Positions 3,887 to 7,004 of a stretch of 64,000 nt of DNA are shown here, in pieces. The translations under genes and the position numbers were made by a program. The stretch lies in contig JAURJQ010000016.1 of NCBI GenBank assembly GCA_030832185.1, positions 62,001 through 126,000 of the forward strand. The letters are read 5' to 3'. Source of the DNA: Chitinophagales bacterium. GTDB lineage: Bacteria > Bacteroidota > Bacteroidia > Chitinophagales > JADJOU01. Within the stretch, counting starts at the first letter, position 1. The number at the start of each line of letters is the position of its first letter. Below the pieces are notes generated by a model. The model did no database searches, was not told where the DNA came from, and saw only the letters and a list, made by a program, of their open reading frames with translations.

Positions 3887-3933
3887 TAGTTGAATAAATT
3901 TTCGTTATTAACAATTAGCTATTAGTTGATTAA
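3887..3933. repeat. Word-like intergenic sequence (ctaatag/attagttg motifs)
   Basis: Between hflX and tmRNA the DNA repeats short words, with AACTAATAACTAATAGTTG overlapping the hflX stop, then CAATTAGCTATTAGTTG. Similar words recur in other gaps of this window (25160-25200, 38402-38420, 40801-40840, 42005-42090). Confidence 0.4.
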
Positions 3934-3934
3934 G

Positions 3935-4299
3935 TGGAGCTGCAGAGATTCGAACTCTGGTCCTGAGTGAGCTAAACCATACCTTCTACACGTTTAGTTT
4001 TCTATTGGTTTTTCGATGCCAGAATGGAATAAAACCAACCTCTCTGACACTTATTCTATATGATTTGATAACATGGTATAGACACCCATACTACGAGTCC
4101 AACATTTTATGATGCCTGCTACCACAGCGTCAGACAGACTGAAGGTAGGAGACAGTAGGGCTAAGACTTAGTCTTAGGCAGCTACGGCGTAAGTATTTTC
4201 GCCAATTAAAAAAGTTCAGTATATGGATTTAAGAGTGCTAATACCATCACTCTACATGCCAGTATAATTTGACATCACCAGTCAATTCCAGTCAGCCCC
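3935..4299 (-). ncRNA. ssrA: Transfer-messenger RNA (tmRNA)
   Basis: tmRNA rescues ribosomes stalled on broken mRNA and tags the product for proteolysis. On the minus strand the 5' end GGGGCTGACTGG pairs with the 3' end CAGCTCC to form a 7-bp acceptor stem with one G-U pair. A T-arm-like GAGTTCGAATCTC lies near the 3' end. CCA is not encoded; the DNA after the discriminator A reads CTT. The tag frame on the minus strand at 4203-4174 reads GGC GAA AAT ACT TAC GCC GTA GCT GCC TAA, i.e. GENTYAVAA with a Gly resume codon, as in other Bacteroidota (GENNYALAA type). Length about 365 nt. The gene converges on hflX and is divergent from the downstream dehydrogenase. Confidence 0.95.
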
Positions 4300-5923: not shown

Positions 5924-7004
5924 GTGAATTTAGAAAATTATAAGAACATAAAAGATAGAATTGCCTCGCTTAGGAGGTATCTTTGACGTCGAGAATCGAT
6001 TATTTAAGATAAAAGAAGAGGAACAATTGACTTTGCGTCCTGATTTTTGGAACGATTCAGCCAAGGCGGAAGCTATACAGAAATCTATTAAGGAAAATAA
6101 AACCTGGGTGGAGGATTTTCAATCTGTGGAGTTCTATATGAATGAAATCGAAATCTTATTAGAGTTTAGAGCAGAGGGAGAGTCAATAAAAGAAGAAGAA
6201 CTCGACCAGCTTTATATTCTATTAGAGAATAACCTTGAGGATTTAGAAGTTAAGTCTGCCTTATCAGATCCAGAGGATACGCTAGGAGTTATATTAAAAA
6301 TCAATGCAGGAGCTGGAGGTACGGAGAGTTGTGACTGGGCATCAATGCTAGAGCGCATGTACATCATGTGGGCGCAGAGCAAACGATTTAAAATCACGGA
6401 GCTGGACCGCAATGAAGGTGACGTGGCGGGCATTAAATCAGTTTCATTGCAGATAGAAGGTCATCTATCTTATGGATTTTTAAAATATGAAAATGGTGTG
6501 CATAGACTCGTGCGTATTTCACCATTTGATAGTAATGCTAAGCGTCATACTTCTTTCGCTTCCGTCTTCGTCTATCCGTTGGTAGATGATACAATTCATA
6601 TTGAAATTAAAGATGCCGATTTAGAAGTCATAACCTCACGCTCTGGAGGCGCTGGCGGGCAAAACGTGAACAAGGTGGAAACTAAGGTACAAATGAAGCA
6701 TTTGCCAACAGGCATTGTTGTAGTATGTCAAGTAGAGCGCTCGCAACATGGAAATAGAGACCGTGCTTTACAGATGCTTCGTTCGCAGCTTTATGAATTG
6801 GAAATTCAAAAAAAGAATGCTGAGCGTGACAAGGTAGAAGCAGGGAAGATGAAAATAGAATGGGGTTCTCAAATTCGTAATTATGTTCTTCATCCATATC
6901 AGCTAGTCAAAGACGCCCGCACAGGCTATGAAACCAGTCAATCTCAAGATGTATTGAACGGTAATCTAGATCCGTTTATGAAGGCCCTATTATTGCATAA
7001 ATAA
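5924..7004 (+). CDS. prfB: Peptide chain release factor 2, with programmed +1 frameshift
   Basis: RF2 reads UGA and UAA stop codons. The main frame lacks a usual start: its in-frame beginning would be at 5961, inside the frameshift region. A short frame begins at GTG 5924 and encodes 20 residues ([20 protein letters not shown]). It ends at CTT TGA C (5981-5987), preceded by AGGAGG. Slipping +1 on CTT continues as [13 protein letters not shown]. The product is about 359 residues, the normal length. The anticodon-mimic motif SPF (VRISPFDSN) and the catalytic GGQ ([11 protein letters not shown], about residues 244-246) are both present. Frameshifting at the in-frame UGA gives the known autoregulation by RF2 level. 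The gene should be annotated as a join at 5983/5985. Confidence 0.93.
5974..5987 (+). promoter_or_regulatory. prfB +1 frameshift site with internal SD-like element
   Basis: AGGAGG TAT CTT TGA C carries an SD-like AGGAGG three bases before the slippery CTT, then the UGA stop followed by C. The layout matches the classical prfB site (AGGGGG TAT CTT TGA C). Confidence 0.9.

Follow-up and report, generated by a model that had tools for sequence, protein, structure and literature searches.

A prfB frameshift site with an internal Shine-Dalgarno sequence in a Bacteroidota lineage that hardly uses SD, and its comparison with the 16S rRNA tails of relatives

The prfB locus

The 64,000-nt stretch of Chitinophagales DNA analysed here (the window) carries on its forward strand a prfB gene that is coded across two overlapping frames. 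A leader of 20 codons with a GTG start (5924–5983) runs into an early frame-0 stop TGA at 5984–5986, and the body of the protein (5985–7004), beginning with GAC (D-V-E-N-R-L...), is encoded in the +1 frame. This +1 frame was identified as RF2 based on the NCBIfam model TIGR00020 (prfB, 459 bits, cut-off 370).

The frameshift site AGGAGGTATCTTTGAC was detected at 5972–5987 with 0 mismatches in a motif search of the window. It comprises an internal SD-like AGGAGG (5972–5977), the 3-nt spacer codon TAT for Tyr (5978–5980), the slippery CTTT (5981–5984) and the weak stop context TGA-C (5984–5987), which is read by RF2 itself. The SD-like element was assigned by the motif search together with the 3' end of the genome's own 16S rRNA (L253); it sits 3 nt before CTT, and its predicted duplex with the 16S tail of the genus amounts to -13.3 kcal/mol. 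The stretch AGGAGGTAT (5972–5980) and the 16S tail of the same genome, AUACCUCCU, are predicted to be able to form 9 bp. AGG AGG TAT CTT TGA C remains the sole match in the window even if 3 mismatches are allowed, and according to base composition about 3e-5 copies of the exact 16-nt site would be expected by chance. The preliminary description of this DNA had recognised a near-copy of the classical prfB site with an SD 3 nt before CTT-UGA-C, in agreement with the exact motif and with RF2 in the +1 frame. Its sequence was correct, but its interval of 5974–5987 started 2 nt late and clipped two bases of the AGGAGG, the true start being 5972.

No stimulatory RNA structure was detected around the prfB site (5924–6060, z = -0.69). 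A tmRNA gene with the tag GENTYAVAA (Rfam RF00023, 127.7 bits; ARAGORN agrees) was found on the reverse strand at 3932–4299, approximately 1.6 kb upstream of prfB.

Leader and slippery stop are retained in three genomes of the same genus (G037, G003 and G024), in which the leader starts with GTG or ATG. The leader plus the site are identical between the window and G003 at 60/65 positions, compared with 26/63 in the 63 bases upstream, and the codon changes within the leader are restricted to K-K, I-L and I-M plus the start codon. G024 has AAGAGG where the window has AGGAGG. No frameshift would be required if TTG 5961 or a later codon were the main-frame start of RF2, and a main-frame ORF of 347 aa does open at TTG 5961. 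However, residues 1–8 of this ORF (MPRLGGIF) are the SD and the slippery site read out of frame, the conservation within the genus tracks the 0-frame leader with substitutions that are synonymous or conservative there, and many relatives have an in-frame main-frame stop at the equivalent place. A start at TTG 5961 was therefore ruled out by the leader conservation among the same-genus genomes, and hardly any credence can be given to a main-frame start. An ungapped main-frame start had been named in the preliminary description as one of the findings that would overturn its reading. Judged from these alignments, the true leader is the 0-frame one beginning at GTG 5924.

Translation initiation in the host

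The use of SD in the host was surveyed over 384 kb of the genome, which gave 241 ORFs with 150 or more codons. The first ATG was taken as start, so that start positions are approximate. GGAGG was found at -20 to -4 before the start in none of them (0/241), and the strongest upstream duplex reached -8.6 kcal/mol in a distribution hardly above that of shuffled sequence, compared with predicted duplexes of -13.3 kcal/mol for the prfB site and -15.8 kcal/mol for rpsU. The earlier suggestion that this lineage hardly uses SD is thereby borne out. In-frame AGG-AGG was likewise absent from the 241 ORFs, which is not significant alone as about 0.7 occurrences would be expected from the AGG frequency. 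Of the stops, 64% are TAA, 27% TAG and 9.5% TGA.

A search of the host's own genome with the Rfam 16S model gave no match, and a DNA search located the last 30 bases of its 16S rRNA at a contig edge (L253; GGAATACCTCCTTTTTAG). The tail GGAATACCTCC contains the canonical CCUCC. Residue 54 of bS21 is Tyr in this genome; in Flavobacterium johnsoniae the 16S tail is redirected by this residue, which stacks on A1534 (PMC9976891). Furthermore, rpsU of the host (L003 1501–1656, G000:C10:28708–28863, reverse strand) carries an extended SD, AAAAAAAGGAGGTATTTTAATATG, as in the published bS21 autoregulation. This element (AAAAAAAGGAGGTATT) may form approximately 13 bp with the host's own 16S tail, the strongest duplex computed. 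Initiation at rpsU does use the anti-SD (PMC9976891). Feature by feature the host agrees with the SD-scarce Bacteroidota type with canonical CCUCC, and by analogy its tail is presumably occluded by bS21, bS18 and bS6.

The prfB site across the order

Of 198 genomes of the order, 197 gave a match to RF2 or a relative (E <= 0.001), some of the matches being RF1 only. The prfB start was readable at 109 of 110 loci, the remaining locus being cut by a contig end. These 109 genes represent the better-scoring RF2 matches and are therefore a biased sample of the order; an extra set was examined separately. A comparison of prfB from many Bacteroidota for AGGRGG-TAT-CTT-TGA had been proposed in the preliminary description. 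The frameshift site is present in 101 of the 109 genes, with CTTT invariant (101/101) and AGGAGG exact in 66. At the stop, 97 sites have TGAC, three TAAC and one TGAG, and the spacer codon is mostly TAT (56) or TTT (42). The predicted duplex with ACCUCCUUUU was -6 kcal/mol or better in 89/101 sites and at or below -10 kcal/mol in 77/101. Pairing with CCUCC is weak in 12 of the 101 frameshift sites, which indicates that the SD is not indispensable in the order.

The other eight readable prfB genes have no frameshift. Neither AGGAGG nor CTTTGA is present in these eight order genomes; the encoded peptide is similar and is specified by other codons.

In family f13 three of the four frameshift-bearing genomes use CTT TAA C (L166, L173, L187), and TAA can also be read by RF2. 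The sole TGAG context among the 101 sites occurs in the family of the window (L088, G050; GGG AGG TAT CTT TGA G). In two genomes of the genus g25 (G026 and G073, family f22; 95% and 72% complete) an RF2 match was not found, just RF1 and small relatives. A recoding of UGA in this genus was considered and rejected, since TGA still serves as stop and no conserved frame with an internal TGA was detected. The genetic code of g25 thus looks standard, and an assembly gap is the likeliest reason for the missing RF2.

Co-variation of the prfB SD with the 16S anti-SD

The comparison was confined to genomes in which both the 16S tail and prfB could be read, since most metagenome assemblies lack the 16S rRNA. 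Lineages whose anti-SD is altered were sought by pattern, and those with the canonical one were drawn from the order sample. When 46 further genomes were searched by pattern for 16S tails, all eight matches fell outside 16S genes; the pattern match in G214 was dropped because it lies outside a 16S context.

Canonical CCUCC was found in 17 genomes of six lineages (f1, f3, f7-g26, f15-g29, f18 and f20), of which 16 genomes in five lineages have AGGAGG. The exception is f15-g29 (G030), which combines CCUCC with the weak SD AAGCGG. Among the eight lineages with an altered anti-SD, three have no frameshift (f43 with UCUCA, a combination already known from Weeksellaceae, f30 with UCUCC and f7-g42 with UCUCU). 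Two lineages with UCUCC carry a matching AGGAGA, namely f7-g8 (AGG AGA TTT CTT TGA C) and f86 (AGG AGA TGT CTT TGA C; a second 16S copy has UCUCU). The remaining three have no usable SD: AAG CGG in f15-g16 and GGT AAG in f90, both with UCUCC, and AAA CAA in f17-g44 with CCUCU. AGGAGG is hence retained in 0/8 altered compared with 5/6 canonical lineages (Fisher p = 0.003), in a small test with few lineages, partly incomplete genomes and sister genera within f7 and f15 counted apart.

The last A of AGGAGA is predicted to pair with U1535, resulting in -10.2 kcal/mol (f7-g8) and -12.0 kcal/mol (f86) with the lineage's own tail as against -8.6 and -8.2 kcal/mol with the canonical tail. In f17-g44 rpsU has AAAGAGGT, the complement of the altered tail ACCUCUUU; a co-variation of this kind has already been published for rpsU. 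AGGAGA also occurs in three genomes outside the two matching families (G046 and G059 of f19, G079 of f18), where it may accompany CCUCC. Moreover, f15-g29 lost its SD under canonical CCUCC, so that SD loss is not solely a reply to anti-SD change and relaxed selection also happens.

Apart from the UCUCA group, altered cores (UCUCU, UCUCC, CCUCU) were observed in several families of Bacteroidota. The corresponding loci are L217 (G053), L216 (G040), L240 (G015), L242 (G073), L255/L256 (G183, G057), L267/L271 (G372), L268 (G450) and L259–L266 (f30).

The loss of AGGAGG, or its replacement by a matching sequence, in lineages with altered anti-SD supports a real SD/anti-SD pairing at the prfB site. 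We slightly favour the view that in Bacteroidota the SD of prfB evolves together with the 16S anti-SD, a change of the anti-SD to UCUCC, UCUCU, UCUCA or CCUCU being followed by a matching AGGAGA (for UCUCC, in two families), by an SD-less site or by loss of the frameshift.

Proposed regulation and alternative explanations

The site in the window is almost certainly the classical programmed +1 frameshift by which prfB is autoregulated. The ribosome would translate 20 codons until CUU occupies the P site and UGA-C the A site, the spacer codon UAU then being in the E site. With plentiful RF2, translation would terminate at UGA. If RF2 is scarce, the ribosome would pause, the peptidyl-tRNA-Leu would slip from CUU to UUU, and translation would yield full-length RF2. 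The AGGAGG three bases upstream may pair with the 16S tail once the tail exits the bS21/bS18/bS6 pocket, thereby pushing the slip. In ribosomes of this kind such help is probably occasional, and the SD would consequently tune the shift rather than enable it. That this organism does frameshift, how often, and what the SD contributes are what we infer from these features.

It might be argued that AGGAGG has no role, being simply inherited or held in place by the leader's Arg-Arg, and that CTTT-TGA-C and slow termination suffice. The 12 order members that frameshift with weak or no pairing fit this view, as do several Flavobacteriaceae that have AGGCAC or AGGCAA upstream of an intact CTTTGAC, and a passage in Prince et al. 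2025 in which the frameshift efficiency in F. johnsoniae is given as low (PMC12421855). However, 66 of the 77 order sites encoding Arg-Arg use AGG-AGG despite the rarity of AGG in the genome of the window (2.75 per 1000 codons, compared with 15.7 for AGA), and the relatives without frameshift employ other codons. The nucleotides, beyond the amino acids, thus go with the frameshift. Furthermore, AGGAGG was never seen together with an altered anti-SD, two such lineages having AGGAGA instead. Taken together, a site without any function of AGGAGG seems unlikely. That the internal SD is a pausing or re-initiation element rather than a frameshift stimulator might be suspected from the long ribosome pausing noted at the F. 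johnsoniae site by McNutt et al. 2021 (PMC8710568), but appears highly improbable given that the sites that keep the SD share both its 3-nt distance from CTT and the +1 register of RF2.

The preliminary description suggested that the anti-SD can still act in elongating ribosomes for frameshifting and not in initiation. The first part gains support from the comparison set, in which AGGAGG is kept just where the anti-SD is canonical and AGGAGA accompanies an altered one in two lineages. The statement as a whole is too absolute, since initiation at rpsU uses the anti-SD, the shift in F. johnsoniae is reported as low and 12/101 sites of the order pair weakly.

Relation to known systems and implications

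The prfB frameshift has been reported from 523 of 726 Bacteroidia, and the same AGGAGGUAUCUUUGAC has been described in F. johnsoniae by McNutt et al. 2021, who remark that its absence from Bacteroidia would be expected (PMC8710568). Across bacteria, Prince et al. 2025 found a premature prfB stop in 64% of 12,753 genomes (PMC12421855). The window and F. johnsoniae share the identical 16 nt, the gene, the SD-scarce ribosome type, with an anti-SD presumably occluded in the window's lineage as well, and the paradox. The window differs in having its own 20-residue leader peptide with a GTG start and, owing to its 16S tail AAUACCUCC, in that the pairing can take in UAU and reach 9 bp. In comparison to E. 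coli prfB (AGGGGGUAUCUUUGAC) the order of SD, 3 nt, CUU, UGA and C as well as spacing and slip are equal, but E. coli has AGGGGG instead of AGGAGG, and its initiation uses SD, which the lineage of the window hardly does.

Naeem and colleagues reportedly found in 2024 an efficiency of about 7% in F. johnsoniae compared with about 50% in E. coli. In their work bS21 mutations are said to raise frameshifting and an SD-less site to work equally well, with SD loss reportedly costing some fitness under streptomycin. The passage of Prince et al. 2025 that cites Naeem et al. 2024 (RNA 30:136-148) describes frameshifting in F. johnsoniae as low and gives a figure of 7% for RF2-specific stops (PMC12421855). 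Removal of the frameshift in F. johnsoniae had no obvious fitness cost (PMC8710568).

Weeksellaceae, which have the anti-SD UCUCA and no prfB frameshift, were taken as a hint that pairing matters (PMC8710568). G218 and G483 resemble them in both respects, their family name being assigned by inference, whereas the lineage of the window has canonical CCUCC and kept the frameshift.

Since sequence, paradox and survey, together with an inference of the same kind as in the preliminary description, are already contained in McNutt et al. 2021 (PMC8710568), the site in the window is a further example of the described case: one more textbook regulatory site, in a type of lineage where its presence had already been called puzzling. 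The co-variation in lineages with altered tails is the sole candidate for a new element beyond the published prfB case, and the comparison of relatives gives the puzzle of the prfB SD a testable form. If the co-evolution is true, prfB would be kept under selection for direct pairing with 16S rRNA in elongating ribosomes, though initiation mostly ignores SD. Altered 16S tails with matching or lost prfB sites would then represent natural compensatory mutants in which pairing during elongation could be tested, and with it whether an occluded anti-SD reaches the mRNA in elongating ribosomes.
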